From: Bifidobacterium [indicum] DSM 20214 = LMG 11587
GTDB taxonomy: Bacteria > Actinomycetota > Actinomycetes > Actinomycetales > Bifidobacteriaceae
DNA length: 64,000 nucleotides
Reading direction: 5' to 3'
Assembly (NCBI RefSeq): GCF_000706765.1
Contig: NZ_CP006018.1
Span: forward strand, 620,001 to 684,000
Shown here: piece by piece, positions 2,102 to 51,461 of the stretch
Position numbering within the stretch: position 1 is the stretch's first letter
Layout: each line of letters starts with the position of its first letter
Translations under genes and position numbers: made by a program
The notes under the pieces: generated by a model
Seen by the model: the letters and a program-made list of their open reading frames with translations, nothing else
The model's database searches: none
What the model was told of the DNA's origin: nothing

Positions 2102-2515
2102 TCAAGATTTGTGAGGATTCTCGTTCGCATCAGCCCACCATTGCTCCCACTGTGGTTGACGGAACCCGACCAGCACCGTGGATCCGTCGACCAGAATAGG
2201 ACGCTTGACCAGCATCCCATCGGTGGACAGGAGACGCAGGGCCGCCTCCCTGCTCATTTCCGGCAACCTCCCACTCAGTCCCATGGATCGGTAGAGTTGC
2301 CCGGATGTGTTGAAGAACCGCTTTACCGGCAGTCCACTCAGCCTTTGCCATGTGTCCAGCTCCTCGAACGTGGGATTGTCTCCTTTGATGTCACGTTCGA
2401 GGAAATCGATCCCTTGAGACCTGAGCCAGGTACGCGCCTTGGCACAGGTCGAACAGGGCTTGTAGCAGACAAAAATCGGCTTGTTCACTGGGTTTTCCGT
2501 GGATGTATCCGACAT
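2102..2515 (-). CDS. ArsC/Spx-family thioredoxin-like protein
   Basis: This 137-residue protein has the arsenate-reductase-like (ArsC/Spx/YffB) thioredoxin fold. The N-terminal half has FVCYKPCSTCAKARTWL, giving a CxxC-type pair (PCSTC) at the usual active-site position. It continues with the family motif IDFLERDIKGDNPTFEELDTW and ends with the typical LLSTDGMLVKRPILVDGSTVLVGF. The start ATG is preceded by GAAAGG. It lies 56 bases after thiN on the same strand, so it is probably the last gene of an azlC-azlD-thiN-arsC-like transcript. It could be a redox protein or an Spx-like regulator; nothing here argues specifically for arsenate as substrate. Confidence 0.85.
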   Translation of the reverse strand: MSDTSTENPVNKPIFVCYKPCSTCAKARTWLRSQGIDFLERDIKGDNPTFEELDTWQRLSGLPVKRFFNTSGQLYRSMGLSGRLPEMSREAALRLLSTDGMLVKRPILVDGSTVLVGFRQPQWEQWWADANENPHKS

Positions 2516-2571
2516 GATGCTGACCTTTCTCTCTCGGCATGGCCTCCGGGCATTTCCTCCACTGCGCGGGT

Positions 2572-3927: not shown

Positions 3928-4673
3928 GCGCTCGCCCCCGTCTCTTCGGGGTCGCCTTGGTCTTTCCGGTGCCTCCCAAGGGTCTGGTCGGCGATGGCGA
4001 AAGCCGCCACGATAAGAACCATGGAGGGAATGATGAAGTGGTCCGGTCCGAAGACCAGGAGGCAGACCAGCGAGGCCGTCAGGCCGATAAGGGCAGGGGA
4101 GTGCGTCTTCGTCCTCATCCATTGGTCGATGAAGAGGACCGCGAACATGGCCGTCAGGACGAACTCAAGTCCCCGTGCGTCGAATCGGGCCAGGTTCCCC
4201 AGCACCGCACCGGCTACGGCCCCACCGACCCAGTAAGCGTGGTTGAGGAGGGTGATGAAGAACATGAACCATCCTCGATCGACTCCGGGCGGTTCCTTGC
4301 TGGAGGAGATAAGGGCGAAGGTCTCGTCACACATGCCGAATATCAGGTAGGGCTTCTTCCATCCCGTCCCTCTGAACCGGGGCAGCATGGCCAACCCGTA
4401 GAAGAGGTGGCGGGCATTGACCATCAGAGTCAGGACAAGGGCGCCGAGGGGGTCAAAGGCCGACAGGAGAAGTTCAACGGTGACGAACTCCATGGACCCG
4501 GCGAATATCAGGGCGCTCATGGCCAGGGGGTAGATGATGGGGAACCCCTTGCTGGTCATCAGGAATCCGTAGGAGATGCCCAGAAAGAGAAAACCGGCCA
4601 GAATAGGCAGGGTCAACGGCAGGGCCGCCCTGAACGCCTTGCTCACAGCCGAGCCCTCCCTGACCTGTTTCAT
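3924..4673 (-). CDS. azlC: AzlC-family branched-chain amino acid permease
   Basis: This 249-residue polytopic protein has the AzlC signature in its N-terminal half: a first long hydrophobic segment (LPILAGFLFLGISYGFL), then FAGSMEFV and the stretch LMVNARHLFYGLAM. Later segments contain FGMCDETFAL and a final pair of helices. With AzlD it forms an export system for branched-chain amino acids. The start is supported by GGAAAGAGA upstream. The frame is open further upstream, but that part is not hydrophobic and lacks family resemblance. The gene diverges from msrAB across about 240 bases, which should contain both promoters. Confidence 0.9.
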   Translation of the reverse strand: MKQVREGSAVSKAFRAALPLTLPILAGFLFLGISYGFLMTSKGFPIIYPLAMSALIFAGSMEFVTVELLLSAFDPLGALVLTLMVNARHLFYGLAMLPRFRGTGWKKPYLIFGMCDETFALISSSKEPPGVDRGWFMFFITLLNHAYWVGGAVAGAVLGNLARFDARGLEFVLTAMFAVLFIDQWMRTKTHSPALIGLTASLVCLLVFGPDHFIIPSMVLIVAAFAIADQTLGRHRKDQGDPEETGASA

Positions 4674-4914
4674 CGTCTCTTTCCGACCTTTCCACGCTTC
4701 CACCGCCGATTCTCCGAACCGCCCAGACGGACCTGGATGGCTTGGATACCGGCTCGATGGTAACCGGCAGTGGGGAGTGGTGCCAAGGCAGGGTGTCGGA
4801 ACTGTGAGAAGCGGAACATATGGATGGCCACGTAGGAATAGGCCGGTTCGGGCACGTGTTGGACCGAGTGTAATGAGGTGGACGATGCGAGGAATCATGA
4901 CAGGAGCAGGCGAT
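4674..4914. other. Divergent intergenic region azlC / msrAB
   Basis: This stretch separates the divergent azlC and msrAB starts and must hold their promoters. On the plus strand TGTAAT at 4869-4874 could be a -10 box for msrAB, but no good -35 box sits at the right distance. I see no clear operator or RNA structure. Confidence 0.4.
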
Positions 4915-5967
4915 ATGTTCACGATGAAGCACACTCGGATGCAGTCCCCGGCTGTGGTCGCCGAGGGGCCGACGGGTTCGGATGGTCGGCAGGCGGCTCC
5001 TGGCGGGGCCGAAACCCTCGTCCTTGCCGGGGGGTGTTTCTGGGGGGTGGAACGCTTCTTTCAGGAAGTGAGCGGTGTCACCGATACCCAGGTTGGATAC
5101 GCCCAGTCCAAGGTGGAGAACCCCTCGTATGAGGAGGTCTGCACCGGCAACACCGATGCGGTCGAGGCCGTTAGGATCGCCTATGATCCGGGCAGGGTCA
5201 CCTTGCGCACCCTGACCCTTCTCCTGCTGGATATGATTGACCCCTTCTCCGTAGACAGACAGGGCAATGACCGGGGTCGCCAATATCGGAGTGGACTTTA
5301 CTGGGAGGCCGGACGGCGCGATCAACAGGAGCCTGTTTTCCGCAGGGCGATCCGCGAACTTGAGGAGCGGACGGGGCGGCATCCTGCGGTCCAGGTCGAG
5401 GCCCTGAGCAACTTTTACCCGGCTGAGGAATCCCACCAGGATTATCTGATCAAGCATCCTGACGGGTACTGCCACATCCCCCTGGATGCCATCGCGGCAG
5501 CCCCCAAGCGGCAGCGGTACATCGAACGGATCTGGGCCCTGGATCAGGAGAGCTACGAGGTGACCCAGCACGCTGCCACGGAGGCGCCCTTCACAAACAA
5601 GTACGATGCGGAGTTCCGCCCGGGGATATATGTGGATGTGGTCGATGGTCAGCCGCTCTTCACCTCGGCGGACAAGTATGATTCGGGCTGCGGGTGGCCG
5701 GCCTTCTCCAAACCCATCGACCCTGACCTCCTGGTCAACCGGAAGGATTTCAAACTCCTGGGCAGACCCCGGATCGAGGTCAGGACGGCCCGGTCGGGCA
5801 TCCACCTGGGGCACGTTTTCGACGACGGTCCGGCGGACCGGGGCGGTCGCCGCTACTGCATGAATTCCGCAGCCCTTCGATTCGTGCCCAGGGATGAGAT
5901 GGAGGCCCAAGGCTACGGGGACTATCTGCCCCTGGTGGATGGCCAGGCCGGTGGGCGGGCCGACTGA
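4915..5967 (+). CDS. msrAB: Bifunctional peptide methionine sulfoxide reductase MsrA/MsrB
   Basis: This 350-residue fusion repairs both S and R epimers of methionine sulfoxide. The MsrA domain carries the nucleophile Cys41 in GGCFWGVE, followed by YEEVCTGNTDAVEAV. The MsrB domain has SGCGWPAF and the catalytic Cys315 in RYCMNSAALRF. The paired CxxC zinc ligands of many MsrB proteins are absent: the equivalent stretch reads GIYVDVVDGQPLF. This is therefore the zinc-free type, seen also in streptococcal MsrAB fusions. I chose ATG 4915 because AGGAG lies 8 bases upstream; ATG 4897 and 4885 are alternatives. No signal peptide is visible, so it is cytoplasmic. It is followed by a strong hairpin terminator. 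Confidence 0.93.
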   Translation: MFTMKHTRMQSPAVVAEGPTGSDGRQAAPGGAETLVLAGGCFWGVERFFQEVSGVTDTQVGYAQSKVENPSYEEVCTGNTDAVEAVRIAYDPGRVTLRTLTLLLLDMIDPFSVDRQGNDRGRQYRSGLYWEAGRRDQQEPVFRRAIRELEERTGRHPAVQVEALSNFYPAEESHQDYLIKHPDGYCHIPLDAIAAAPKRQRYIERIWALDQESYEVTQHAATEAPFTNKYDAEFRPGIYVDVVDGQPLFTSADKYDSGCGWPAFSKPIDPDLLVNRKDFKLLGRPRIEVRTARSGIHLGHVFDDGPADRGGRRYCMNSAALRFVPRDEMEAQGYGDYLPLVDGQAGGRAD

Positions 5968-6101: not shown

Positions 6102-7991
6102 ATGTGCGGAATAGCCGGGTTCGTCTCTGATGCCCCAATCGAGGAGAAGACGGCCGTCCTGAAGCGGATGACGGATATCATCGCCCATCGAGGTCCTGAT
6201 CAGGAGGGGCACTTCGTCAACGAGCAGGTGGCCCTGGGTTTCCGCAGGCTGAGCATCATCGACCTCCAGGGCGGTGACCAGCCCATCTTCAACGAGGACT
6301 CCAGCATGGCCATCACCTTCAACGGTGAGATCTACAACTACCGTATGCTGCGCGAGGTCCTGATCGAGAAGGGGCACACCTTCACCACCGACTCCGACAC
6401 CGAGGTCATCCTGCATGGGTACGAGGAGTGGGGCAAAGACGTGCTGACCCGCCTTCGCGGCATGTTCGGCTTCGTCATCTGGGACAGCAACCGCAAGGAA
6501 CTCTTCGGGGCCCGTGACCACTTCGGCATCAAGCCCTTCTATTACGCCATCATGAACGGCACCTTCATGTATGGTTCGGAGATCAAGAGCCTCATCCAGC
6601 ATCCCGATTTCCATAAGGAACTCAACAAGGAAGCGCTGCGGCCCTACCTGACCTTCCAGTACCCGGCCCTGCCCGAGACCTTCTTCAAGGGCGTATTCAA
6701 ACTGCCCGAAGGCCACTGGTTCACCTACCGGGACGGGAAGATGGACATTCACCAGTACTATGATCCGGCCTTTGGTGAGAGCGACCAGAATCTGGCCGAC
6801 CTGGTCGACTCGATCGACAAGACCGTGGAGGATTCCGTCAAGGCCCACCAGGTCGCCGATGTGGAGGTGGGGTCCTTCCTTTCCTCCGGAGTGGATTCCA
6901 GCTATGTCGCCGCGGTTGCCCGCCCGGAGCACACTTATTCGATCGGCTTCGGCAAGGGCACCTATAACGAGTCCGACCAGGCGGGGGAACTGGCCTCCCT
7001 CCTCAAGCTCAACAACACCACCGAATCTTTGGACGGCGACCAGGCCTTCCAGTATTTCCCGCAGATCCAGTGGTATCTGGACGAGCCGGACTCCAACCCC
7101 TCCTGTGTGCCCCTCTTCTTCCTCTCGGAGCTGGCCAGCCGCGATCTGCGTGTGGTCCTGAGCGGGGAGGGGGCCGATGAGCTCTTCGCGGGTTATGTGG
7201 ACTACGGGGTGCACACCCGGTACAAGGTCATCAAGGTGGCCACCCGGATTCTGGGGCACCTGCCCCGCAAGGCCCGCTACGCCATAGGGCGCTGGGCCAA
7301 GGGGAAGCGTTTCCCCGGGGCCTGGCATCTCTATGCCAACCTGGCTCCGGCCGAGGAGAACTTCATCGGCCAGGCCAAGGTCTTCGAGGAGGACGAGGCC
7401 GGGCGCATCCTTCGGCCCGAGTACCGCAAGGCGCCTTCGGTCAAGCAGATCGTGGACCGGACCTATGCCCGTCTCCGAGGGCGGAACCTGTCCGAGCTCA
7501 AGAAAAAGCAGTATCTGGACATGCATCAGTGGATGCCCGGTGACATCCTCCTCAAGGCCGACAAGATGACCATGGCCCATTCCCTGGAGTTGCGTGTGCC
7601 GCTCCTCGACACGCGCCTCATGGATGTGGCCGAGAAGGTTCCCACCAGGTATCTGATTACGGACGAGAACACCAAGTTCGCCTTCCGCAAGGCCGCTGAC
7701 CGGCATATACCGCGGGAGTGGTCCGACCGCGAGAAGCTGGGCTTCCCGGTCCCCATCAAGGATTGGCTTCGCCGGGAAAAGTACTATCGTCTGGTCCGTT
7801 CGGTCTTCGAGCGGGATTACGTGGGGGAGTTCTTCGACCAGGAGGCCCTCCTGCAGATGATTGACGACAACTATGCCGGCAGGAACGATGCCCGGCGCAA
7901 GATCTGGACCATCTACTCCTTCCTGACCTGGTACGACGACTACTTCATCCACGACGGCACCAAGCCGGAGCTTCTCGACCTGGCGGACTAG
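6102..7991 (+). CDS. asnB: Asparagine synthase (glutamine-hydrolysing)
   Basis: This 629-residue enzyme makes asparagine from aspartate, ATP and glutamine. The mature N terminus begins with Cys2 (MCGIAGF), the glutaminase nucleophile. The class II amidotransferase domain covers about residues 2-200, with RRLSIIDLQGGDQP and FNGEIYNYR. The synthetase domain has the PPi-loop variant LSSGVDSSYV and later SGEGADELFAGY. The start fixes Cys2 and is preceded by AAGGAG eight bases away; an in-frame start three codons earlier would bury the cysteine. It stands alone between two hairpins, upstream of the infC operon. Confidence 0.96.
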   Translation: MCGIAGFVSDAPIEEKTAVLKRMTDIIAHRGPDQEGHFVNEQVALGFRRLSIIDLQGGDQPIFNEDSSMAITFNGEIYNYRMLREVLIEKGHTFTTDSDTEVILHGYEEWGKDVLTRLRGMFGFVIWDSNRKELFGARDHFGIKPFYYAIMNGTFMYGSEIKSLIQHPDFHKELNKEALRPYLTFQYPALPETFFKGVFKLPEGHWFTYRDGKMDIHQYYDPAFGESDQNLADLVDSIDKTVEDSVKAHQVADVEVGSFLSSGVDSSYVAAVARPEHTYSIGFGKGTYNESDQAGELASLLKLNNTTESLDGDQAFQYFPQIQWYLDEPDSNPSCVPLFFLSELASRDLRVVLSGEGADELFAGYVDYGVHTRYKVIKVATRILGHLPRKARYAIGRWAKGKRFPGAWHLYANLAPAEENFIGQAKVFEEDEAGRILRPEYRKAPSVKQIVDRTYARLRGRNLSELKKKQYLDMHQWMPGDILLKADKMTMAHSLELRVPLLDTRLMDVAEKVPTRYLITDENTKFAFRKAADRHIPREWSDREKLGFPVPIKDWLRREKYYRLVRSVFERDYVGEFFDQEALLQMIDDNYAGRNDARRKIWTIYSFLTWYDDYFIHDGTKPELLDLAD

Positions 7992-8008
7992 CTCCCTGCA
8001 CGGACCAG

Positions 8009-8038
8009 CGGGCTGCGGGTGTTTTGCTGCGGCCCGTT
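8009..8038 (+). terminator. Possible terminator downstream of asnB
   Basis: CGGGCTGC at 8009-8016 can pair with GCGGCCCG at 8029-8036, with one wobble pair. Only TT follows, so termination would be weak or need Rho. It lies just past the asnB stop and before the infC promoter. Confidence 0.4.
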
Positions 8039-8042
8039 CCCG

Positions 8043-8071
8043 TGGGCATGTCTCCGGTTCTGTGGTATAGT
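8043..8071 (+). promoter_or_regulatory. Promoter of the infC-rpmI-rplT operon
   Basis: TATAGT at 8066-8071 is a good -10 box with an extended TG one base before it (TGGTATAGT). TGGGCA at 8043-8048 is a partial -35 match at 17-bp spacing. Initiation around 8078 would give a leader of roughly 230 bases before infC. Confidence 0.6.
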
Positions 8072-8077
8072 GTCCTT

Positions 8078-8305
8078 TGGCTTGAGAAATCAAGAAAGTG
8101 GATAATCCCACCTGGGAGCCTCCCATGGCTTCGGGTTCACATTGTGGGTTCGGCTCCGTGATATTGGATGCCTGACCACGAGGAGTAATGCGGTTTTCCC
8201 TCCGGATGGAGGATTCCGCCGGCTCATGCTGTGAATTCGTCGCTTGCGGTTCCTGATGGTTGTCCGCCTGCAGTGGGTGTTGTGTGAATTTGAAAAGGAG
8301 TCATC
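8078..8305 (+). promoter_or_regulatory. Structured 5' leader of infC
   Basis: This long untranslated region precedes the IF3-L35-L20 operon. It can form two stem-loops. The first pairs GGAGCC at 8115-8120 with GGCTCC at 8152-8157, with CCCA/TGGG inside. The second pairs GCGG/CCGC around CCTCC at 8199-8203 and GGAGG at 8208-8212. Between and within them lie two short reading frames. Leaders of this operon are autoregulated by L20 or IF3 in other bacteria; whether this one is, or belongs to a known RNA family, is inference. Confidence 0.5.
8188..8256 (+). CDS. Possible 22-codon leader peptide in the infC leader
   Basis: An ATG at 8188 is preceded by GAGGAG four bases away and opens a 22-codon frame ending in TGA at 8254-8256. 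The peptide begins MRFSLRMEDS and ends with a cysteine-rich part (SCCEF, then ACGS). Its ATG overlaps the TAA of an even shorter frame that starts at 8168 (MPDHEE), in a TAATG arrangement. The frame covers the second hairpin of the leader, so its translation would open that structure. There is no proof that it is expressed; the ribosome-binding site is the main support. Confidence 0.35.
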   Translation: MRFSLRMEDSAGSCCEFVACGS

Positions 8306-9064
8306 ATTAGCGACGAACCAAGGATTAACGACGAGATACGAGCATCTCAGGTACGCCTGATCGGCCCGAACGGCGAACAGGTCGGGATTATCGCAACCTC
8401 GGTCGCACTCAATCTGGCCAAGGAGGCGAACCTGGACCTGGTCGAGGTGGCAGCCCAGGCCAAACCTCCGGTCGCCAAGCTCATTGATTACGGCAAGTTC
8501 AAGTACAACGAGAAGATCAAGGCCCGTGAGGCCCGTCGCAATCAGAGCACATCGGAGATCAAGGAGATTCGTTTCCGTCTCAAGATCGACGACCATGATT
8601 TCGAGGTCAAGGAGGGGCACGTACGCCGCTTCCTGTCCGCCGGAGACAAGGTCAAGGTCACGATCATGCTGCGTGGCAGGGAGCAGTCCAGGCCCATCGG
8701 TGGCGTGGAACTCCTCCGCAAGCTGGCCGATGATGTCGCTGATCTGGGCTCCATCGAGTTCGCCCCCAAGCAGGAGGGTCGTAACATCATCATGACCTTG
8801 GCCCCCAAGGGCAAGAAGGTCCACACCCAGTCCGAGCAGCGCCGCAGGGGCGGCCAGGCCAGGGCTGAGCGTCAGGCGAGGCAGGCGGCACGTCTGGCCG
8901 CCAAGTCCGATGAGACCCAAGCCAGGAAGCAGGCCGAGGACGAGGCCGAGCAGGCCGTCGAGAAGATCGACGCCGCTCCCGCTCCCAAGGCTCCCAAGTC
9001 AACCACTACTTCCCCGAAGAAGATGAAATCCAAGGAGGGCAGCAATGCCGAAGATGAAAAGTAA
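8306..9064 (+). CDS. infC: Translation initiation factor IF-3
   Basis: IF3 binds the 30S subunit and proofreads start-codon and initiator-tRNA pairing. The protein has 252 residues. The N-domain begins [27 protein letters not shown], and the C-domain contains [20 protein letters not shown] and [15 protein letters not shown] long basic, Ala/Lys/Glu-rich tail of about 70 residues follows, longer than in E. coli IF3. The start is the rare codon ATT, with AAAAGGAG five bases upstream; the adjacent ATC at 8303 is an alternative. Use of AUU is the known means by which IF3 controls its own synthesis. The 3' end overlaps rpmI by 20 bases. Confidence 0.93.
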
Positions 9065-41173: not shown

Positions 41174-44100
41174 CTATCGTTTCAGGCGTTTCAGCCATGA
41201 GCTTGCCGATACCAAGGCCATGACCAGACCGCCGACCACCAGGAACATGATGATTCCCGGCCCGCCGGCATGGGGAAGCATACTGAGATACTCATAGGGG
41301 AGGATGGCGTCGTCCTGCTTGATTCCGTTGATTTTCCATACGATTGTGGTGTCGACGACTCCAACCGGATGGGCCGGTGTGGTCACCGTCCAGGTTTCGT
41401 CGTTCTCCGCCTTCAGATCGATGCCGTTCCGGCCGTCGAAGGCCACGGAGGTGAGATCCACCCTTCCGGGGAAGGGCATCGTCGTCGGCGTGAGGACCAA
41501 TGTCTGGTTGATGGCGCCCAGTCCCAGCTGGTTCTCAGTGTTGCGGCCCCATGAATAGGTCTGCCCATCACTGCCGATGGCGATGGAAAAGAGGAATCCT
41601 GAACTCACCTGGGTCAAGGATACGTTTTCGGGCAGGCCCTGAACCGTGGTCGGGGTCAGGGCCTTGGAGGTCTGATCGTTCCAGTCGTTCGGAATGGACG
41701 GAACTCCCAGGGCCCCGCTGCCGTTCCACCCCCAGCAGTAGGTCTTTCCGTCGGTTGCCGGGGCCATGTTGAACCCGTAGCCGGTCTCGATGTCGGTCAG
41801 GACAACACCCGAAGGGAGAGGAACCTGAAGGGGCTGTGGGTTGGTTCGGTTTTCGGAACCGTTGCCCATCTCACCCGATCCGCCGAATCCCCAGGTCCAG
41901 GCCCTGCCGTTGGAATCCATGGCGGTTGTATGGCCGTACGTGGCCAGGATCTTGGTCAGGACGGTACCTGCCGGTAGTCCAATGAGCGGCGCAGCTGTCG
42001 GACTGGAGGTGGTGCCTCCATTGCCCAACTCCCCGGACCCGTTCATGCCCCAGAGATAGGCCTTGCCTGACCTGTCCAGGACGGCGTTGTGGTTGTTGCC
42101 TGCGCTGATGGAAACCACGCCGACGTCTTCCGACAGTCCTTGAACGCGTACGGGGGTGGTGCTCAGGGCGGCCGCATTGCCATCGCCTGTGGGGACCGAG
42201 GTGTTGCCCAGCTGGCCCTGCCCGTTCTTCCCCCAGGCCCAGACTCTTCCCTTGCTGTCCAGGAGCAGGTTGTGGAAGTAACCGGCGCAGATATCAACCA
42301 CCGTTACATCTGAGGCCAGCCCTTGTATCGGCTTGGGTGTGGGGCTCATTGCGACGGATACGGAGCTCCCGGTTGGGATGTCACTACGTCCCAGTTGGCC
42401 GAATTCGTTGGAGCCCCAGGCATAGATCTTCCCGTCCGATCCGAGTGCAAGGGAGTGGTTGCTGCCGGCGCAGACCTTGACGGGGGTCACTCCGCTTGGA
42501 AACCCCCTGACCTCCACCGGTACCGGGGAATCGCCCTCGGCCTGGGTCCGTCCCAACTGGCTTTCGGCGTTGTAGCCCCAGGCGTAGATCTTCCCGTCCG
42601 ACCCTATGGCCAGGGAATGGCTACCGCCGGCGCTGACCTGGCTGAATCTGACCCCCCGTTGTGCCGGGGGTGTCAGAGTAACCCGGGTGCCGCCGGTGTC
42701 CGGACCCTTGGCTGGCTGCATCTTCCAACCGTCCTGACCGGTCCATCGGGCGGTCAACGTCGTGTCTCCGATGACGGAGCGGTTGAAGTCATAGGCCACT
42801 TTTCCGATGAACCATCCGTCGAAGCGGTATCCGGAACGGACCGGGTCATTCGGTCGTGCGACCCTTTGCCCCGGCTCCAAGGTTTGTTCCGGGACTGTAG
42901 GGCCGTCCTGACCGGTATCGAAGGTGACCTGGTATTTGGCGGTCTCTCCCGTGTAGAGGTAAGGCAGGGCGGTGGTGGTTGATGCCCCGTATCGGGTCAG
43001 GTGGAGGAGGGCGACGGCCCTTCCCGAAGGATGAGGGGGTGTGGTGACTGTCCAGGAGCCGTCAGACAGCCTGGACAGGTCCGTTCCCGCCTGCCCGTCG
43101 AAGGTGACCGAATCGATGACCTGAGGGAGGGGGAAGGGGGTTTCGGTGGCCACGGTAACTGCCTGATCCCCGTTGCCTCCGCCCAGTTGTCCAAAACCAT
43201 TGGCGCCCCACCCATAGACCCTGCCGTTGGTGGTCAAAGCCAGGGTATGCGCCCGTCCGGCGCTGATGGAATTTGCCTGCACCTGGCTGGGTAGGCCCTG
43301 GACCTGGACCGGGACCCTATTGGTGGTCGTGGTGGTGCCGTTGCCCATCTCCCCGCCACCGCCGTAACCCCAGGCCCAGACCTTGCCGTCACCTCCGATT
43401 GCGGTGGAGTGCCCGTAACCTGCGCTGATTGCAACGCATTTCATCCCGCTGGGCATGGACACGCGGGTGGGGGAGGAGTTGGATGAGGAGGACTGACCGT
43501 TACCCAGTTCCCCCGACGTATTGACCCCCCAGGCCCAGACCGTGCCTTGGTCGTCCAAGGCCAGGGCGTGTTCGGAACCTGCGCTGACGGATACGATTTT
43601 GGTGCCTTCGGGGAATCCCTTCACCTCGGTAGGTGCGGCGGACCAGGAATCATCCCGGTCCGATCCTGAGGGCACTGAGGGATTGCCCAGTTGGTCGTGG
43701 GCATTGCTGCCCCATGTAAACACCCTCCCGCTGGAATCCAGGAGGATGTTGAAGTTGCCTCTTGCACTGATGGAAACAGGTACCGTGCCCGACGGTAATC
43801 CCTGCACCTCCACAGGCGTCCTGCTTAAGGCGCTCGCCTCCCCGCGACCGGTGGGAAGATCCGTCCTGCCCAGCTGCCCATACTGGTTGTCGCCCCAGGT
43901 ATAGACCTTGCCGTCTCGACCAAGGGCGATCATATGGCTGGCTCCGGCGCTTACCTGCGCCAGGGTCAGGTCCGAGGGGAGCTGAACGGGGACTGGCTTG
44001 CCCCATCCATAGGGTTTGGTGGGGTCGCCCAACTGGCCCCGGTCGTTATGTCCCCAGGCCCAGGCCTTCCCTTCTGCGGTCAGGGCAATTGTGGTGTAGT

Positions 44101-44686
44101 CACCGGTGGCTATGTCGGTTGCTGTTCCCGCGGGTATTCCTTTCAGCCGGACGGGGGAGGTGGTGGGGTTGTCGAAGTCTCCGCCAAGTGTGTTGTCGCG
44201 GTTGTCGCCCCAGGCGTAGATGTCGCCGTCGCTGCCGAGGCCGAATGTCCGCCAGGATCCTGCGCTTATTTTGCTGAATCTGGTTCCGTCCGGTGCCAGT
44301 GGCGTCAGCACGATCCGGGTGCCACCTGCCGGGTCGCCGCTGTCGGGATTCATGGACCAGTTCTTTTCAGGGGTCCAGCCTGCTTTCAGAGTCAATGGGG
44401 AGGTTACCGGCTTGCTGAAGTCATATGCAACACCACCCGCGAACCAGCCGTCGAAATGATACCCTTCGCGTTGCGGATTGGTGGGCCTGGTGACCAGTCC
44501 GCTGGCCGGCACGGTCTGGGGGGAGGGGGCCGGTTGCCCCTGTGTGGCATCGAACTCAACCTGGTAGCCGGCCTCGCTGGCCGTCGCGACTTCCGTGGTC
44601 GTAATCAAGGGCACGATAAGGAAAATCGGGACCAGAGCAGCCAGAAGTGTGGTCAGGGTAGAAGAAGCACGTCTGCCTATGGACAC
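41174..44686 (-). CDS. Large secreted RCC1-repeat surface protein with two seven-bladed propellers
   Basis: This 1170-residue protein starts at GTG with AAGGAGG upstream. Residues 1-38 are a signal peptide. Two modules follow. Each has an InlB/Flg_new-type beta repeat (41-104 with GYHFDGWFAGGVAYDF; 585-648 with GYRFDGWFIGKVAYDF). Next comes the start of a TIG-like domain (GGTRIVLTP; GGTRVTLTP), seven RCC1 repeats, and the end of the TIG-like domain (SVTFDGQ...WTVTTPPHP; SVAFDGR...WTVTTPAHP). RCC1 blades show the WG pattern near residues 156, 209, 262, 323, 384, 437 and 491, and again near 701, 755, 816, 877, 930, 983 and 1045. The C terminus has LPHAGG, a hydrophobic helix and KRLKR, as in sortase-anchored proteins. 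It is probably displayed on the cell surface for adhesion; binding partners are unknown. Confidence 0.88.
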   Translation of the reverse strand: MSIGRRASSTLTTLLAALVPIFLIVPLITTTEVATASEAGYQVEFDATQGQPAPSPQTVPASGLVTRPTNPQREGYHFDGWFAGGVAYDFSKPVTSPLTLKAGWTPEKNWSMNPDSGDPAGGTRIVLTPLAPDGTRFSKISAGSWRTFGLGSDGDIYAWGDNRDNTLGGDFDNPTTSPVRLKGIPAGTATDIATGDYTTIALTAEGKAWAWGHNDRGQLGDPTKPYGWGKPVPVQLPSDLTLAQVSAGASHMIALGRDGKVYTWGDNQYGQLGRTDLPTGRGEASALSRTPVEVQGLPSGTVPVSISARGNFNILLDSSGRVFTWGSNAHDQLGNPSVPSGSDRDDSWSAAPTEVKGFPEGTKIVSVSAGSEHALALDDQGTVWAWGVNTSGELGNGQSSSSNSSPTRVSMPSGMKCVAISAGYGHSTAIGGDGKVWAWGYGGGGEMGNGTTTTTNRVPVQVQGLPSQVQANSISAGRAHTLALTTNGRVYGWGANGFGQLGGGNGDQAVTVATETPFPLPQVIDSVTFDGQAGTDLSRLSDGSWTVTTPPHPSGRAVALLHLTRYGASTTTALPYLYTGETAKYQVTFDTGQDGPTVPEQTLEPGQRVARPNDPVRSGYRFDGWFIGKVAYDFNRSVIGDTTLTARWTGQDGWKMQPAKGPDTGGTRVTLTPPAQRGVRFSQVSAGGSHSLAIGSDGKIYAWGYNAESQLGRTQAEGDSPVPVEVRGFPSGVTPVKVCAGSNHSLALGSDGKIYAWGSNEFGQLGRSDIPTGSSVSVAMSPTPKPIQGLASDVTVVDICAGYFHNLLLDSKGRVWAWGKNGQGQLGNTSVPTGDGNAAALSTTPVRVQGLSEDVGVVSISAGNNHNAVLDRSGKAYLWGMNGSGELGNGGTTSSPTAAPLIGLPAGTVLTKILATYGHTTAMDSNGRAWTWGFGGSGEMGNGSENRTNPQPLQVPLPSGVVLTDIETGYGFNMAPATDGKTYCWGWNGSGALGVPSIPNDWNDQTSKALTPTTVQGLPENVSLTQVSSGFLFSIAIGSDGQTYSWGRNTENQLGLGAINQTLVLTPTTMPFPGRVDLTSVAFDGRNGIDLKAENDETWTVTTPAHPVGVVDTTIVWKINGIKQDDAILPYEYLSMLPHAGGPGIIMFLVVGGLVMALVSASSWLKRLKR

Positions 44687-44963
44687 GAGGGCCTCCTTGT
44701 CGTGCTCCTCTTCTCAAGAGAATAAGGGCGCGCAATCGAGCATGGCGCTTTATCCGTTACTGCAAGTTCGATAAGCTCTGAATCATCCACTGTAGGGAAT
44801 GCAACCCTGGAATCCGTTGATTTCGAAGAAACGACACGACACAGGGTTTGTTACCTCGGTCTCTTTTTCCGATTGGAACGGCAAGGAGGCGGGTTTCATA
44901 TATCAAAAAGGCCGGAGCAGCTGGTGTTCCAGCCGCTCCGGCCTTGAGCCGGTGGTCTACCAA
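44687..44963. other. Intergenic region upstream of the first RCC1 gene
   Basis: It holds the Bax-inhibitor gene's terminator at 44904-44945 and must contain the promoter of the RCC1 protein gene on the minus strand. TATTCT near 44716-44721 (minus strand) is a possible -10, without a clear -35. No other signal is seen. Confidence 0.35.
44904..44945 (-). terminator. Rho-independent terminator of the Bax-inhibitor gene
   Basis: AAGGCCGGAGC at 44908-44918 pairs with GCTCCGGCCTT at 44935-44945, and the inner GCTGG/CCAGC extends the stem around a TGTT loop. On the minus strand it is followed by a run of T (AAAAA at 44905-44909 on the plus strand). Confidence 0.88.
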
Positions 44964-45938
44964 TCAGTCACTGTTTCCGACCATGTCCAGGATGTACAGG
45001 AAGAGATTGACGAAATCAAGATAGAGGTTCAGTGCGCAAAGGATGGAGACCTTCTTGATGACCTCGGTTCCCTGATTCTGGTAAGCGGCGAAGATGCGCT
45101 TCGTCTGTTGGGCATCATAGATGGTCAGTCCCGCAAAGAGGACGATGCCGATGCCTGCCACAATCCTGAGGGCTGTGTTCGAGGGAGTCAGGAACATCAG
45201 CGCGACCTGGACCACGATCAGGAAGATCAGGGCGACCAGGAGGATGCTGCCCATGCCCATCAGGTTCTTGCGCGTGGTGAGTCCCAGCATGCTCAGAACG
45301 AAGAAGAACCCGGCGCAAATCACCAAGGTCAGCAGGATGCTCGGGAGGGAGTATGCCACGAATATGGAACTCAGCGTGAAGCCCATCAAGGCTGCATAGA
45401 GGTAGAACATGACCCTGGCGGTCGTTGTCTTCATCGTCATGATCCTGGTGCCCAGGAAGACGGCGAAGAGTACCTGGGCAACGGACAGGCCAATCCAACC
45501 CCACATTCCCGTGGCCATGATGAAGGCGTACAGGAGACCGGAAACGGCCGTAAGGTAGGCAACAGCAGCCGTGACAAGCAGACCGACGGCCATTTCCCCG
45601 TACGCGCGGGACATGGAGATATTCTCGGCTCTTCGCAGGGAAGCGGCAGCGCGGCTGTTCATCGGCGGTGTGGATTGAGGCTGGGGCATCGGCATGGCCG
45701 GTGGCTGAGCATAGATCGTCTGGCCGTACTGGGCCTGCGGAGCATACTGTCCTTGCGGGGCGTACTGACCCTGTGGGGCATATTGACCTTGCGGGGCGTA
45801 CTGGGTCTGTCCTGGGTAGGGGGCCTGTGGCGTGTATTGCGCCTGAGGCGAGGCCTGCATCTGGGGGTTCTGCTGCCTGTACTGGATGCCCTGCTGATTG
45901 AAGTCATTGCTTTCTTGGGGCTGACCGTTGAGTGCCAT
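44964..45938 (-). CDS. Bax inhibitor-1/YccA family membrane protein
   Basis: This 324-residue protein has two parts. The first 105 residues are hydrophilic, rich in Gln, Pro and Tyr, and include four tandem QYAPQG-type hexapeptides (residues 46-69). The rest is a seven-helix BI-1-like domain (pfam12811-type YccA-like), from MAVGLLVTAAVAYLTAVSG to a final region TIYDAQQTKRIFAAYQ and LYLDFVNLFLYILDM. The motif LNLYLDFVNLFLYIL is typical. BI-1 proteins act as calcium-leak or pH-sensing channels in some species; the role in actinobacteria is unclear. AAGGAGAACCTT precedes the ATG. It lies between the two RCC1 giants on the same strand but has its own terminator. Confidence 0.88.
   Translation of the reverse strand: MALNGQPQESNDFNQQGIQYRQQNPQMQASPQAQYTPQAPYPGQTQYAPQGQYAPQGQYAPQGQYAPQAQYGQTIYAQPPAMPMPQPQSTPPMNSRAAASLRRAENISMSRAYGEMAVGLLVTAAVAYLTAVSGLLYAFIMATGMWGWIGLSVAQVLFAVFLGTRIMTMKTTTARVMFYLYAALMGFTLSSIFVAYSLPSILLTLVICAGFFFVLSMLGLTTRKNLMGMGSILLVALIFLIVVQVALMFLTPSNTALRIVAGIGIVLFAGLTIYDAQQTKRIFAAYQNQGTEVIKKVSILCALNLYLDFVNLFLYILDMVGNSD
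45732..45803 (-). repeat. Four tandem 18-bp units in the Bax-inhibitor gene
   Basis: Four in-frame 18-base units encode QYAPQG, QYAPQG, QYAPQG and QYAPQA. Copies differ slightly at synonymous sites. The tract is a candidate for slippage and length variation among strains. Confidence 0.8.
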
Positions 45939-46070
45939 AAGGTTCTCCTTGAAGTGCCTGAGACTGGTTTAGGCACCGTTCGGTCAATTCTACACGTTTG
46001 GAAACTGGGTGTATGCGATACCAGTCTCCGTACTATGCGTGACGTATTGGCTGGTTACCCCTATGGGAGA

Positions 46071-46112
46071 AAAGTGGAGGCGGCCCCCTGGGGAATTGAG
46101 TGAGCCGCCTCC
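46071..46112 (-). terminator. Rho-independent terminator of the larger RCC1 gene
   Basis: GGAGGCGGC at 46076-46084 pairs perfectly with GCCGCCTCC at 46104-46112. On the minus strand it is followed by CACTTTTC, giving a short T run. Confidence 0.78.
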
Positions 46113-46148
46113 GATGGCCATGGGCTTTGGGATGCCCGAAATGGCCTC

Positions 46149-49100
46149 TTACTCAGGTGAAGTATTGGTAGTGGTTGGTGGGGTGTGCCGATGCCGGTTG
46201 GCATTGGTGATGGCAAGGGTGAGCATGCCGGCGATGATCAGAAGGATGATGCCGGTGCCTCCCGCGTTCGGCAGGATGCCGGTGTGCCGGTAGGTGTAGG
46301 TGTTGGTGGTGTCGTCGGGCTGGTCCTGCCCTGCGAGGGTCCACCGGACGCGCACGGGTACAGGTCCCGGGTCGTGAACGGTGGTGGTGACCTGCCAGGT
46401 GTTCGGTCCTGTCCGTCGCAGGGGGAGTGTGGCGTTGTCGATGGTCAGGCTGGTGGGTGTGGGCTGCGGGGGGACGGTGGCCTTGTGTGGCGTTGGCGTG
46501 GGATCGGTGTCGCCGTGGCCTGCTTGTCCGTTGGTGTTGTCTCCCCATGCCTGGGTGTCGCCGTTGGTATCGATGGCGATGGTGGTGTCATCGCCTGCAA
46601 TGGTGACGGTGGTACGAAGGCCGGGGACGACCGTAGGCTGCAACGGGGTGGAGGTGTCATGGCCTGCTTGTCCGTTGGTGTTGTCGCCCCAGGTCCAGGT
46701 GCGGTGGTCCTGTCCGGTGGCGGTGTAGTGGGCGCGCCCGGTGGAGGTGTGCGTGAACCGGTATGTGTCGGCCGTGCCTGCGGGCTGGATACGTACGGGG
46801 GTTGCGGTGTCGGTGCCGTCGGCGAGGGTTCCCCAGGCCCAGAGGCGTCCCTGCTGGTCGATGGCCAGGGTGTGATCGCCTCCCGCGCTGGCCTGGACAT
46901 AGCCTGTAGGCTGTTGCGGATCGGGTGCAGCGGCGGCGATGGGGGTGCCGGTGTCCTCGTCTTCATCGTCTTCGTCAACGTTGGCATCGGTGTCGGCGTG
47001 GCCGAGCTGGCCGTGTGTATTGGACCCCCAGGTGTACAGGTTCCCATCCGATCCGATTGCCAGGGCATGCCGATCGCCCGCAGCGATTTGTTCGTAACGG
47101 AACGCCGGGGGTGCCCCCTTGGGGACGTGCACGAGCAGAGGGATGTCGCTTTTGGTGCTCCCGTATGGGTCGCCGAGCCCTTCTGGCATGGTTCCCCAAG
47201 TGTACATGGTGCCATCGGATCCGAGCCCGATGACGAAACCGTCTCCGGCGGCGGTGGAGACCCAGGTGAATTCGGGGTCTTCGGCATCGGCAGGGGTGCG
47301 GACCTTGACGGGCCTGGCGCTGCTGGTGCTGTAGTCCCTATCTCCAAGTCCGCTGGGTAGCGACCCCCAGATGTAGAGGTTGCCGTCGGAGCCGACTGCG
47401 GTGCTGTGGGTGCGCCCGGATGCGGCCTTCACCCAGGTGAACTCGTCGCCGGTGCCGTCAGGTCGGGGAATCAGGACGGGGGAGGTGCGCCGGGTGAGGG
47501 TACCGTCCCCGAGTTGCCCGTAAGTGTTGTCACCCCAGGCGTACAGGTTGCCATCCGAGCCGATGCCCAAAGCGGACGATCCGCTCGTGTCCACTGAGGC
47601 CAGGCGGATACCGGGCGCGGCGGGCGCGGTCAGGGTCAGGGTCTCGTCGCCGTACTCGCTGCCGTGGTCCGGGCTCAGGACCCACCGACCGGTTCGGTGC
47701 CACCGACCGGTCAGGGTCAGGTCATGCTCCAGAGGTCGGGTGAAGTCGTAGGCCAGGTCACCGTCGAACCATCCGTCGAACGTCCACCCGTCCTCGGATG
47801 GGTCATCCGGGCGTTGAGTGGGCTCGCCTACCGGAACTTGCTGCGGGTCGGGAGCGTGTCCGTGTGGGGTGGTGAAGGTGAGGGTGGCCATGTCGCCGGT
47901 GTAGGTGAACTGCTGGCTCGTGTCCTCGACGTGCTGGGATTCTTCGTAGTCGTCGTCCCCCTGGACGCCGGGCAGGGTCCGGATGGTCAGCGAGACGGTC
48001 TCGGGCCGGTGCCGTGGCGAATAGGCATGCCAGCCGTCGGGCCTGCGCCGCATATCCCCGAGATTCGTCTTGGGGCCGAACAGGACACTTGTGATTCGAC
48101 CGTCCACCGGGCGCCACACCATGACCGGATCGATATGGCGTCGTTCGTCGTAGCTATCATCACCGTCGGTGTTGATGCCAAGCTGACCCCGGTCATTGTT
48201 CCCGAACGCGTACGTGTTGCCGTCCGAACCGATGATTAGTGTGTGGTAGCTGCCGCTGTTCGCGGTGAAGAGACGGGCGTACTTGAATCCGTTCGGCGTT
48301 CCTTTGGGGATTGGGACACGGATGGGGTTGGATACAGGCGGGTCGTTGCGGCCCGTGTTGGTGTCGGAGCCCAGCTCTCCGTACGAGTTATCGCCCCAAG
48401 CCCATACACCGGTGCTTGTGATGACCATGTACTTGTTCCACGAGCCACCTATCTCAGTTGCTCCGGACAGACCGGGTACCCGGCCGGGTCGGTTGGCGGG
48501 GTTGTTTGCGTCTGAGGTGCGGCCCAACGTGGCTCTTGGTTCATCCCCCCAGGTGTAAACGTTACCGTCCCGGCCGATTCCCATGGTGTGGAAAGTGCCA
48601 CCGCAGAGAGTTGTGAAGCGCAGTCGGGTGTCGACGGGCGCCGGCCCGTTGCCGACGTGGCCGAGCACAGCATCGGGGTCCGCAGGGTGGTCGCTCATGA
48701 TGTCATCGGCGCCCCAAGTCCAGGCCGTCCCATCGCTGGTCAGGGCCATGGAATGGGATTCGGCTCCGCCAAGTGTGGTGAAAGCCGCCTCGGGTACGAG
48801 CACCTTCCCGGCAGTGTCACCCCAACCTCGGCCGTCCGAGCCGAGGTGGCGTCCCAGCTGACGGTTACCGTTGAGTCCCCAAGACCAGATGTTGCCATCC
48901 TGGTCGAGGGCCAGCGTATGGCTCATGCCAACGCAGATGGCGATGAACCTCACATCCGCGGGCACATCGATCAGGCCGGGTCGTTTGTAGGGGTGGTCAT
49001 CGTCCGCTGGGCGGCCTTGTTGGTGCTGTCCGTTATAGCCCCAGGTCCAGACCTTGCCGTCGCGGTCCAGTGCCACGGAGTGCCAGTAGCCTGCCTGCAC

Positions 49101-51461
49101 TTGGGTGAACTTCACGCCTTCGGGCATGGCGACCATCACTGGGGTCGAACGATTGGTGGTGGTGCCATCGCCGACCTGTCCGTCGTAGTTGCCCCCCCAC
49201 CCATACGCATTGCCGTCACTGCCCAGGGCCAGAGAGTGGTGTAGCCCTGTGGACACCTGGGCGAACCTGACCGGTGCTGTGGGTGAAGCCAGGTGCACGT
49301 CGGTGCCGCCACGCCAGGGGCCCTTGTTGGGGGTGGTGACCCTCTGCCCCCAGCGGGCCGTCAGGGTTACGTCCCCGGTCACGGGTTTGGAGAAGTCGTA
49401 GGCCAGGTCGCCCTGGAACCAGCCGTTGAATGTCCATCCGTCCGAGGTCGGGTCGTCGGGGAGGCGTACGGTGTCGCCGACGACGACGTGTTGTGCGGGC
49501 GTGGAGGATCCGTGCTCGGTCTTGAAAGTGACGGTGGCGGTGCGGCCGGTGTAGGTGAAACGTTGGCTGGTGTCGTCAGGTTGGGCGACACGGTCAATCG
49601 TGGATTGGATGGTGAGGGTGGCGGTGCCCAGGCCGTGCCTGGGGGTGGTGACATGCCAACCGTCGGCCTTGCGATAGGGGCCGGCGGAGTTGCGTGATTC
49701 ATCGAAGGGGAGGTCGGTGAGCTGGGTGTTGGCGACCTGCCAGACCATCACCGGGAGGGGGTTGGATGTCTTGTTCGCGGTGTTGAATCCCAACTGACCG
49801 TATGCGTTATCTCCATGGGCGTATGTATTACCGTCGGAGCCGACGAGCAGGGTATGGGTGCCTGCTGAGCCGCTCGATATAGAGATGTACCCGAATCTTG
49901 CGGGTACCTTGTCGGGGGCGGAGACTCGGACGGGTGTGACTGAATCCTGGGTGGTTCCGTCGCCGAGTTGGCCCCGGTCGTTGCTTCCCCAGGCCCAGAT
50001 ACCGGTGTCCGTAACGGCCACGGTACGGCCGGCTCCGGCGCTGACACCGGTTGCCCCTGTCAGGCCGGGCACGCGGCCTGGTCTTTCGGCGGGGTTGTCC
50101 TTATCAATGGTATGGCCCAGTCTTCCATTTTCTGTGTCGCCCCAAGTCCAAATGGTTCCGTCTTCGGCTATGGCTGTCGAATAACGATCGCCTGCGCTGA
50201 TGACAGTGAATCGCAGGTCAGTAGAGACCGGGGCGGGATCCAAACTGAAGGACATGCCTGGTGGAAAGTTGGGGGTTCTGTCAGTACCGAGAGCGTTGCT
50301 GAAAGTCCCCCAGGTCCAAGCGATGCCATCCTCTGTCAGGGCTATGGAGTGGTCTTTCCCGGCGCTGATTGCAGTGAGCCCTTCGGGCATGTTGTATTCC
50401 ACCAGTCCGGGTGTGTATTGAGGGCAGTTTCTGGTGTTGCGAGCAATGTAAGCAGAATGACCCCAGGACCAAGCCCGTCCATTCTGATCCAGGGCCAGGG
50501 AATGGACGGAGCCAGCGGTAATCGCTGTGAAGGTCACGTCCTCGGGTGCGGCGACCAAGACGGGTGTCGATATGGTCTCCTCGGTGTTTGAGCCTTGCCC
50601 CAGGTTACCGTACCAATTGTTGTGTCCCCAGGTCCAGATCTTGCCATCCCGGTCCAGAGCCATGGCGTAGTCGTCCCCGGCGGACACCTGGGCGATCCTG
50701 ACACCTTCGGGCAGAGCGACCATCTGTGTAATGTTGCGCTGGGTTGTGGTGCCGTCACCCAACTGGCCGTATTTGTTGGCACCCCAGGCGTAGGCGTTGC
50801 CGTCGCTGCCCACCGCCAGTGAGAAGCCATTACCTGTGGACACTTGGGCAAGGCGGACCTGGTCGGTTGGCGTCGCCACCGTCACGTCGGTGCCGCCCAG
50901 ATGGGGGCCTTCGTTTGGGCTGGTGGAGAACGAGCCGCCCCACTTGGCGGTCAGGGTCACGTTCCCGGTCACGGGTTTGGAGAAGTCGTAGGCCACATCA
51001 CCCTGGAACCAACCATTGAAGGTCCAGCCCGCACGGGTGGGATTGTCATGTGGAATGGCGGCTGGTTTTCCGTCGGCCACGGTCTGCCCGGACGGCATCC
51101 CCTGAGTGCCTGCCACGGAAGAGAAGGTCACGGTATGGTTGCCCCGAGCCCTGCTTGCAGGGCGCCCCGCGTCAGCCAGCGGACTGGGCGTCGACAGCGG
51201 GGAGGGGGCGGTTTGCTGCTTTGGTGCAGTTGCCGAAGACGGCGAAGCCGAAACCGAAGGTGATGGTGAAGCCGAGGGGGAGGGCATAACAGAGGGAGAG
51301 GCCGAGGGGGCAGGAGAGACGCTGACGGAATCCACCTGGTCCTGTTCGGCCCCCGATGCCTGGACTCCCGCTGCCAATCCCAGCCCCGCAAGGGACAGGG
51401 CGGCCATGATACCCAGAACGGGACGCAAGAAACGACGCCCGGACACGATGGAACTGCGCAT
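46149..51461 (-). CDS. Giant secreted RCC1-repeat surface protein with three seven-bladed propellers
   Basis: This 1770-residue protein starts at ATG with GGGAGG upstream. Residues 1-35 are a signal peptide, then a Ser/Pro-rich linker to about 106. Three modules follow. Their InlB/Flg_new-like repeats are near 108-175, 642-705 and 1192-1255, each containing GWTF(N/D)GWF. Then come split TIG-like domains, each holding seven RCC1 blades. Blade WG sites lie near 224, 276, 331, 382, 439, 490 and 547; then 753, 805, 859, 914, 970, 1021 and 1084; then 1307, 1362, 1420, 1476, 1541, 1589 and 1637. The C terminus has LPNAGG, a hydrophobic helix and a tail rich in His, Arg and Thr. The third module is richer in Thr, Asp and Pro than the others. 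It is likely a wall-anchored surface protein paralogous to the one at 41174. Confidence 0.88.
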   Translation of the reverse strand: MRSSIVSGRRFLRPVLGIMAALSLAGLGLAAGVQASGAEQDQVDSVSVSPAPSASPSVMPSPSASPSPSVSASPSSATAPKQQTAPSPLSTPSPLADAGRPASRARGNHTVTFSSVAGTQGMPSGQTVADGKPAAIPHDNPTRAGWTFNGWFQGDVAYDFSKPVTGNVTLTAKWGGSFSTSPNEGPHLGGTDVTVATPTDQVRLAQVSTGNGFSLAVGSDGNAYAWGANKYGQLGDGTTTQRNITQMVALPEGVRIAQVSAGDDYAMALDRDGKIWTWGHNNWYGNLGQGSNTEETISTPVLVAAPEDVTFTAITAGSVHSLALDQNGRAWSWGHSAYIARNTRNCPQYTPGLVEYNMPEGLTAISAGKDHSIALTEDGIAWTWGTFSNALGTDRTPNFPPGMSFSLDPAPVSTDLRFTVISAGDRYSTAIAEDGTIWTWGDTENGRLGHTIDKDNPAERPGRVPGLTGATGVSAGAGRTVAVTDTGIWAWGSNDRGQLGDGTTQDSVTPVRVSAPDKVPARFGYISISSGSAGTHTLLVGSDGNTYAHGDNAYGQLGFNTANKTSNPLPVMVWQVANTQLTDLPFDESRNSAGPYRKADGWHVTTPRHGLGTATLTIQSTIDRVAQPDDTSQRFTYTGRTATVTFKTEHGSSTPAQHVVVGDTVRLPDDPTSDGWTFNGWFQGDLAYDFSKPVTGDVTLTARWGQRVTTPNKGPWRGGTDVHLASPTAPVRFAQVSTGLHHSLALGSDGNAYGWGGNYDGQVGDGTTTNRSTPVMVAMPEGVKFTQVQAGYWHSVALDRDGKVWTWGYNGQHQQGRPADDDHPYKRPGLIDVPADVRFIAICVGMSHTLALDQDGNIWSWGLNGNRQLGRHLGSDGRGWGDTAGKVLVPEAAFTTLGGAESHSMALTSDGTAWTWGADDIMSDHPADPDAVLGHVGNGPAPVDTRLRFTTLCGGTFHTMGIGRDGNVYTWGDEPRATLGRTSDANNPANRPGRVPGLSGATEIGGSWNKYMVITSTGVWAWGDNSYGELGSDTNTGRNDPPVSNPIRVPIPKGTPNGFKYARLFTANSGSYHTLIIGSDGNTYAFGNNDRGQLGINTDGDDSYDERRHIDPVMVWRPVDGRITSVLFGPKTNLGDMRRRPDGWHAYSPRHRPETVSLTIRTLPGVQGDDDYEESQHVEDTSQQFTYTGDMATLTFTTPHGHAPDPQQVPVGEPTQRPDDPSEDGWTFDGWFDGDLAYDFTRPLEHDLTLTGRWHRTGRWVLSPDHGSEYGDETLTLTAPAAPGIRLASVDTSGSSALGIGSDGNLYAWGDNTYGQLGDGTLTRRTSPVLIPRPDGTGDEFTWVKAASGRTHSTAVGSDGNLYIWGSLPSGLGDRDYSTSSARPVKVRTPADAEDPEFTWVSTAAGDGFVIGLGSDGTMYTWGTMPEGLGDPYGSTKSDIPLLVHVPKGAPPAFRYEQIAAGDRHALAIGSDGNLYTWGSNTHGQLGHADTDANVDEDDEDEDTGTPIAAAAPDPQQPTGYVQASAGGDHTLAIDQQGRLWAWGTLADGTDTATPVRIQPAGTADTYRFTHTSTGRAHYTATGQDHRTWTWGDNTNGQAGHDTSTPLQPTVVPGLRTTVTIAGDDTTIAIDTNGDTQAWGDNTNGQAGHGDTDPTPTPHKATVPPQPTPTSLTIDNATLPLRRTGPNTWQVTTTVHDPGPVPVRVRWTLAGQDQPDDTTNTYTYRHTGILPNAGGTGIILLIIAGMLTLAITNANRHRHTPPTTTNTSPE
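49374..49405 (-). repeat. Intragenic repeat, copy in the second module
   Basis: These 32 bases are identical to 50964-50995 and encode the YDFSKPVTG region of the Flg_new-like repeat. Longer flanking similarity makes the two sites likely recombination partners. Confidence 0.7.
50964..50995 (-). repeat. Intragenic repeat, copy in the first module
   Basis: It is identical over 32 bases to 49374-49405, about 1.6 kb away in the same orientation. Recombination between them would delete exactly one module. Confidence 0.7.

Follow-up and report, generated by a model that had tools for sequence, protein, structure and literature searches.

A 64,000-nucleotide stretch of the Bifidobacterium indicum DSM 20214 (LMG 11587) genome (the window; positions 620,001 to 684,000 of contig NZ_CP006018.1) encodes two giant RCC1-repeat surface proteins, P0001 and P0002, and we put at roughly 0.8 the probability that each of their modules is a List_Bact_rpt repeat followed by a TIG/IPT-like domain whose B–C loop is replaced by a seven-bladed RCC1-type propeller, with an outer face that most likely binds variable partners. 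The genes are minus-strand open reading frames (ORFs) at window positions 41174–44686 for P0001 (1170 aa, GTG start) and 46149–51461 for P0002 (1770 aa). Pfam searches with the full-length proteins identify 15 RCC1 and two Flg_new (List_Bact_rpt) stretches in P0001 and 17 and three in P0002, and cutting at the ends of the List_Bact_rpt repeats gives two modules in P0001 and three in P0002. The order within a module is List_Bact_rpt, about 30 residues, the RCC1 repeats, and about 60 residues closing in Y.Y. The flank ahead of the repeats has a motif of the P..G...GGT.V.L type and the flank after them one of the V.FD....W.VTTP.H..G type before the closing Y.Y. Both are present in all five modules, which bears out an earlier sequence-only reading that a TIG-like start precedes the RCC1 repeats and its natural ending follows them.

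Evidence for a single split domain

Part of the main evidence comes from domains that have no insertion. From 43 joined flank pairs we drew an alignment of 23 members, leaving out two mis-trimmed pairs and otherwise mostly near-duplicates, and mapped profiles of its N- and C-halves separately onto 19 uninterrupted domains, 17 of them from three outside genomes (picked by a joined-profile match above 15 bits) and two from unsplit relatives. The N-half maps to the start of the domain (residues ~4–21 in the outside domains; 7–34 and 8–30 in the unsplit copies). The remainder is covered by the C-half, which begins at residues 28–31 in the outside domains and 38–40 in the unsplit copies, and N lies before C in all 19. 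The two mapped halves are separated by 3 to 9 residues at the place that the propeller occupies in split modules, and because the strand order puts this gap between strands B and C, the insertion site is the B–C loop. Comparison of total scores was rejected as a test of order: a circularly permuted profile scored 38.2 bits and the forward profile 40.5 (means over the 19 domains), but HMMER sums separate hits and the total is therefore uninformative on order, so the positions of the halves were used instead. Profiles with shuffled N columns scored 25.6–26.2 bits.

The two unsplit copies are themselves in RCC1 proteins of related genomes. One is at aa ~679–777 of a 1861-aa frame (locus L155, genome G026) and the other at aa ~440–540 of a 586-aa frame (L157, G021), and each sits after a List_Bact_rpt repeat, as in the split modules. 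Since two natural insert-free copies exist, the flanks are best regarded as one domain. In a tree of 93 aligned columns, a short alignment in which the outgroup is not monophyletic, the L155 copy is nested within the split modules (supports 0.85 and 0.92). The L157 copy is joined by long branches to one of the window modules (0.77). The placement of L155 hints at loss of the propeller, although the tree is weak.

A structural prediction is consistent with this organization. AlphaFold2 (AF2) was run on P0001 residues 104–583 with 23 relatives and gave a model with pLDDT 91.2 and pTM 0.85, in which strands at 7–10, 13–14 and 21–26 are followed by 28 propeller strands (seven sets of four) and then by five more (420–426, 432–436, 442–445, 452–462, and 465–475). 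We take these to follow the E-set Ig order, such that strands A, A′ and B would precede the propeller and C, C′, E, F and G would come after it, and both flanks would probably pack as one sandwich. Foldseek places the module propeller on UVR8 with an rmsd of 2.1 over 384 columns. The window propellers share the seven-bladed form of the RCC1-like propellers of UVR8, RCC1, HERC2 and RPGR, but differ in being part of a bacterial surface protein, in occurring several to a chain, and in being inserted in another domain. The Ran nucleotide exchange carried out by RCC1 would not be expected of surface proteins.

Relationship of the host domain to TIG/IPT

TIG/IPT domains (PF01833) occur in plexins, COE/EBF and Met, and the joined flanks are related to these by several searches. 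With Pfam, TIG is matched by five of eight joined-flank sequences, one of them above the gathering score; three of the matches cross the joint (from profile position 5–7 to 72 of 84) and two are by the C-half only (33/34–68). Among the 23 aligned members the Pfam matches at E≤1 are to TIG in ten (best E 4.4e-6), Big_7 in three, Big_13 in two, and CARDB in one. The joined-flank profile finds ten PDB sequences at E≤10, the top six of which are five plexins (E 1.4e-7 to 0.045) and COE1 (0.11). The best whole-sequence match, to plexin-A1 (E 1.4e-7), is aligned over 6–94 of the 94 profile positions, and the last four are weak (a virus capsid at 0.24, the HGF receptor at 0.32, and two COE3 sequences at 0.34 and 0.5). 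When 396 genomes from across the phylum were sampled, with 13 candidates scored in each, 16 match the profile, and the matches listed in the 15 other genomes all cross the joint continuously. Two of the outside proteins found in this way were scanned with Pfam, and both are TIG arrays without RCC1, one with nine stretches (E 5.5e-108) and one with seven (E 6.4e-74). The host domain thus resembles TIG/IPT in profile relationship, strand order and collinear halves, and differs from it in that the B–C loop carries a domain of ~380 residues and that many members fall below the Pfam cut-off.

Distribution of split modules

The window genome, which from its gene content is probably that of a honeybee-gut Bifidobacterium, is a single contig of 1,734,546 bases, in which we find nine giant RCC1 proteins with 26 split modules. 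A scan of the whole genome with the joined-flank profile at E≤10, in which each of the 92 first-look candidates was scored, gives 52 matches, all inside the nine RCC1 ORFs. Half of these are N-halves (26, with E from 2e-9 to 7e-5) and half are C-halves (26, with E from 8e-22 to 3.5e-7), one pair per module. The profile was built partly from the same modules, and the scan therefore speaks for the regularity of the pattern and is not independent support for its identity, which comes from the PDB, the outside genomes and the unsplit copies.

In 76 loci from the window genome and its relatives there are 303 RCC1 clusters, 33 of which run into frame ends and were left out. Of the 270 complete clusters, 250 have both halves, eight have the N-half only, ten the C-half only, and two neither. 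By eye, a diverged N-half is present in nine of the ten C-only clusters and both halves in the two scored as having neither, and several of the N-only clusters are degenerate first modules with repeats lost by the profile. The two-half modules have exactly seven repeats in 212 of 250 cases. Some modules are counted twice, as some of the L014–L023 loci are possibly from genomes also sampled elsewhere in the set, and 243 of the 250 are unique. Two short modules, of 328 and 334 residues (L014:636–1619 and L023:5979–6980), have by eye about four recognisable RCC1 repeats between the TIG halves.

Whole modules are also present in relatives that live in bees, among them B. mizhiense, B. choladohabitans, B. 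apousia, B. mellis and Bifidobacterium sp. 7101. Within the genus, RCC1 is present in 22 of 27 genomes, and it is these 22 that the joined-flank profile matches; 20 of the 27 have at least 39 RCC1 matches. First-look RCC1 candidates numbered 497 in G002 and 535 in G021 (two related genomes; 150 scored of each) compared with 187 in the window genome. In the family, 25 of 189 genomes match at E≤1e-4, and three of these lie outside the genus. Two of the three are represented by loci from another genus of the same family, L165:46–1848 and L166:1–1749, which have seven and six detected RCC1 repeats, respectively, between TIG halves; L165 is a single-module protein and its N-half scores only 6 bits. 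Because these are split too, the insertion is either older than the divergence of the two genera or has been exchanged between them. The third genome outside the genus (G038) has TIG-like matches with no RCC1 in that stretch. Three loci on viral contigs were set aside, as they match query residues 2–90, which is mostly the List_Bact_rpt part.

Weighing the split-domain interpretation

There are several observations that do not favor this interpretation. Full-length P0001 and P0002 are without a Pfam match to TIG even at E 10, an NCBIfam scan of both proteins is likewise without TIG, and the relationship is thus invisible to a routine scan. When the joined flanks of window modules are searched singly, TIG is matched in only one of four: P0001 module 1 gives 16.7 bits, which is below the cut-off. 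Pfam matches nothing in P0001 module 2 or in P0002 module 1, and P0002 module 3 matches Big_7. More widely, there is no TIG match in three of the eight joined-flank sequences and 13 of the 23 alignment members. Of the unsplit copies, L157 has a TIG match of 17.7 bits (positions 5–83; cut-off 20.9) and L155 has none in Pfam, and the best single-domain i-E among the PDB matches is only 0.028. In the AF2 model the flank pLDDT is mixed (65, 95, 78 and 88 in blocks of ten on the N side; 77–95 over the last 60 residues), and the pTM mostly reflects the propeller. Direct coupling analysis of the 243 unique modules places N–C pairs at 16 of the top 45, where ~22 are expected; mean coupling is highest for B–E among the 15 N–C strand pairs. 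Lastly, the repeat count departs from seven in 38 of the 250 two-half modules (six in 18, five in ten, four in five, three in two, eight in two and nine in one).

It is highly improbable that the flanks are two separate linkers or half-domains that resemble TIG edges, with the propeller between domains rather than within one, since although neither half alone is called by Pfam (two of two halves tested), the N–C covariation gives no clear signal and packing as one sandwich is no more than probable, in all 19 uninterrupted domains the N-half and C-half cover complementary stretches, the same domain is uninterrupted in two relatives, and the strands predicted in the N-half include a two-residue A′ bridge, which needs a partner. 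A second alternative accepts the insertion but assigns the host to a different Ig-like family (Big or CARDB-like), with the TIG/IPT label being wrong. The matches to Big_7, Big_13 and CARDB among the 23 members, and that of P0002 module 3 to Big_7 rather than TIG, are what this would predict. However, TIG is both the commonest match and the one with the best E-value, plexins and COE1 take the first six places among the PDB matches, and the two proteins from outside the family that were scanned are Pfam TIG arrays; we consider a different Ig-like family to be improbable.

A propeller inserted in a loop of an Ig-like domain, five times over in two proteins, was what the sequence-only reading had proposed, and the profile matches in PDB and outside genomes together with the insert-free copies support it. 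Its expectations for profile searches and for structure prediction held in part: joined flanks do match TIG/IPT (in Pfam, PDB and the outside arrays) but neither half alone is called by Pfam, and both flanks have strands in TIG order, with their packing as one sandwich being probable.

Face-biased divergence and possible function

Because successive propeller strands alternate in direction, the chain enters and exits the propeller on one face. From the topology, this TIG face would include the S1 start, the S2–S3 turns and the S4 end, and the far face would be formed of the S1–S2 turns and the S3–S4 loops. The TIG domain would thus be on the entry and exit face, with the opposite face pointing away from the graft. 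We compared divergence on the two faces in seven proteins of the window genome and their orthologs in a genome of the same species (82–97% identical); two of nine pairs were excluded, that of P0001 for being 99% identical and that of L013, at 33%, for not being orthologous. Nonsynonymous change on the far face is 590.7 per 6279.5 sites (0.094) and on the TIG face 109.2 per 2441.3 sites (0.045), with an odds ratio of 2.2 and a Fisher p of 1.2e-15 that is optimistic because codons and sites are not independent. The direction is the same in all seven proteins, in which synonymous change shows no difference between the faces (p 0.56). By part, dN/dS is 0.46 for RCC1, 0.38 for TIG, 0.24 for List_Bact_rpt and 0.72 for the rest.

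A plausible architecture is that two to four modules in tandem, together with a signal for secretion and an LPxAG-type sorting signal at the C-terminus, would form a wall-anchored rod carrying one disc per module. The outer face, with its S1–S2 turns and long S3–S4 loops, would be the most likely to bind variable partners on food particles, host tissue or other cells. Duplication, and change on this face, may be how the family diversifies. The face-biased divergence is in keeping with a conserved mount that bears a binding disc, and to that extent agrees with the earlier suggestion of a large binding disc on an Ig stalk. A precedent for propellers of this type with a protein partner may be BLIP-II, a bacterial RCC1-like propeller that binds beta-lactamases and is a single secreted propeller. 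By analogy, the discs could be inhibitors or decoys that bind one protein class rather than adhesins. We think this unlikely, as the window proteins have multiple discs and sorting-like ends, unlike BLIP-II, although the evidence does not separate the two.

The alternative that stands best, though we still consider it unlikely, is that the discs serve chiefly as armour or spacers, in which case variation of one face reflects nothing other than relaxed constraint. The ratios, with far-face pN/pS of ~0.6 and dN/dS for RCC1 of 0.46, neither of which is above 1, detract from the case for binding and are compatible with relaxed constraint. The face bias may also be a structural constraint on the tight S2–S3 turn, where constraint is indeed to be expected. 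On the other side, the two faces differ by a factor of about two, synonymous sites show no such bias, and it is present in seven of seven proteins; 20 of the 27 genus genomes have 39 or more RCC1 matches. We favor a binding role for the outer face.

The integrin beta-I domain sits in an Ig-like hybrid domain, and integrin inserted domains resemble the propellers described here in that a beta domain of a surface receptor has one of its loops occupied by a domain that binds ligands (putatively so for the propellers). The folds and organisms are unrelated, and in the window modules it is the propeller that is inserted and the Ig-like domain that hosts it. The integrin alpha-I inserted domain provides another comparison (PMC12422189).

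A possible second host fold for RCC1 propellers

In three loci from metagenome-assembled genomes (MAGs), recorded as Bacilli (L026), Acholeplasmataceae (L027) and Tenericutes (L029), List_Bact_rpt (Flg_new) repeats are seemingly interrupted after their first strand by an RCC1 propeller, with the remainder of the repeat following the propeller. There are six such modules (L026:3–1433; L027:4838–6268 and 7112–8539; L029:299–1720, 1931–3346 and 4436–5842). After the propeller, the match to the repeat profile starts at position 16, 18, 22 or 24 of 73 in four of the six. In the remaining two it starts at position 3, and the joint is less distinct. Ahead of the propeller there is a profile match in L026 only (positions 1–19, ~0 bits), and the others were recognised by eye. 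AF2 modelling of the L026 module with five relatives (pLDDT 89.0; flank blocks 63–78) predicts a strand at 4–11 and later strands at 414–425, 441–447 and 466–474. List_Bact_rpt would then be a second, apparently independent host fold, which is a weaker lead than the TIG case.

Layout of P0001, P0002 and their surroundings

All of the following features are on the minus strand. In P0001, the first List_Bact_rpt repeat (residues 41–104; 44375–44566; from Pfam, with limits set by eye) is followed by the TIG-like N-half of module 1 (strands A, A′ and B; residues 105–136; 44279–44374), the inserted seven-bladed RCC1 propeller (residues 137–515; 43142–44278), recognised from its seven sets of four model strands and the Foldseek match to UVR8, and the C-half (strands C, C′, E, F and G; residues 518–579; 42950–43135), with both halves placed by flank motif, joined-flank Pfam match, profile and AF2. 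The second List_Bact_rpt repeat (residues 585–648; 42743–42934; Pfam, best stretch 585–646) leads into the N-half of module 2 (residues 649–680; 42647–42742), its RCC1 repeats (residues 681–1073; 41468–42646) and its C-half (residues 1074–1134; 41285–41467). For this module and those of P0002, the halves were placed by flank motif and profile, and the RCC1 repeats by Pfam with limits by eye.

P0002 begins its modules with a List_Bact_rpt repeat at residues 110–174 (50940–51134; Pfam, by eye), after which module 1 has its N-half at residues 175–203 (50853–50939), RCC1 repeats at 204–576 (49734–50852) and C-half at 577–638 (49548–49733). A second repeat (residues 641–704; 49350–49541; Pfam, best stretch 643–702) precedes module 2, with N-half at residues 705–732 (49266–49349), RCC1 repeats at 733–1118 (48108–49265) and C-half at 1119–1188 (47898–48107). 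The third repeat (residues 1192–1254; 47700–47888; Pfam, by eye) precedes module 3, with N-half at residues 1255–1285 (47607–47699), RCC1 repeats at 1286–1664 (46470–47606) and C-half at 1665–1725 (46287–46469).

Both proteins end in what, read from the translation, resembles a sorting signal, with a short motif (LPHAGG in P0001, 41177–41278; LPNAGG in P0002, 46152–46277), a hydrophobic stretch and a basic tail, and they are thus putatively attached to the wall. The motif varies in the family, with LPHAG and LPNAG in the window and LPLTG, LPKAG, LPQAG, LPRAG and LPNAG in relatives. No Pfam or NCBIfam anchor model matches these C-termini in a scan of both proteins, and the three sortase genes of the genome are all outside of the window. 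Between P0001 and P0002 there is a 324-aa ORF (44964–45938) that by eye is Bax-inhibitor-1-like, and a terminator-like stem-loop of 17 pairs (44908–44945) lies between it and P0001. This upstream stem-loop suggests that P0001 is its own transcription unit; terminator-like sites number 11 where 7.5 are expected (sd 2.8), and no promoter-like sites were found where 2.1 are expected.

Significance

The RCC1/List_Bact_rpt/LPxTG surface-protein family of honeybee bifidobacteria has been described previously (Bottacini 2012, PMC3447821; Ellegaard 2015, PMC4449606), and the main texts of these two papers do not contain the terms 'TIG', 'IPT', 'Ig-like', 'Ig domain' or 'immunoglobulin'. Searches of open-licence papers gave no title pointing to RCC1 insertion in an Ig-like domain, and one apparent match, 'rCC1' in the text of PMC8013792, is recombinant CEACAM1 and not an RCC1 repeat. 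The family is known; the insertion architecture, which was not found in the literature searched, and the face bias are added here.

A family recognised by its RCC1 repeats thereby gains a concrete architecture, with an attachment site for the disc, a free face, and residues that change. It follows that constructs should run from TIG to TIG rather than include the repeats alone, and it is also indicated which face to test for a ligand. Because halves that are ~380 residues apart escape Pfam in full-length proteins, other split Ig-like hosts may be missed. We suggest tentatively, and with some doubt, that RCC1 propellers are portable inserts in bacterial surface proteins, that they have entered loops of no fewer than two stalk domains unrelated to each other (TIG at its B–C loop in Bifidobacteriaceae, and List_Bact_rpt directly behind strand 1 in Acholeplasma- and Bacilli-like MAGs) and can be lost leaving a whole TIG domain, and that in bee bifidobacteria they may provide a diversifying repertoire of binding discs in which the far face varies and the grafted face is fixed.

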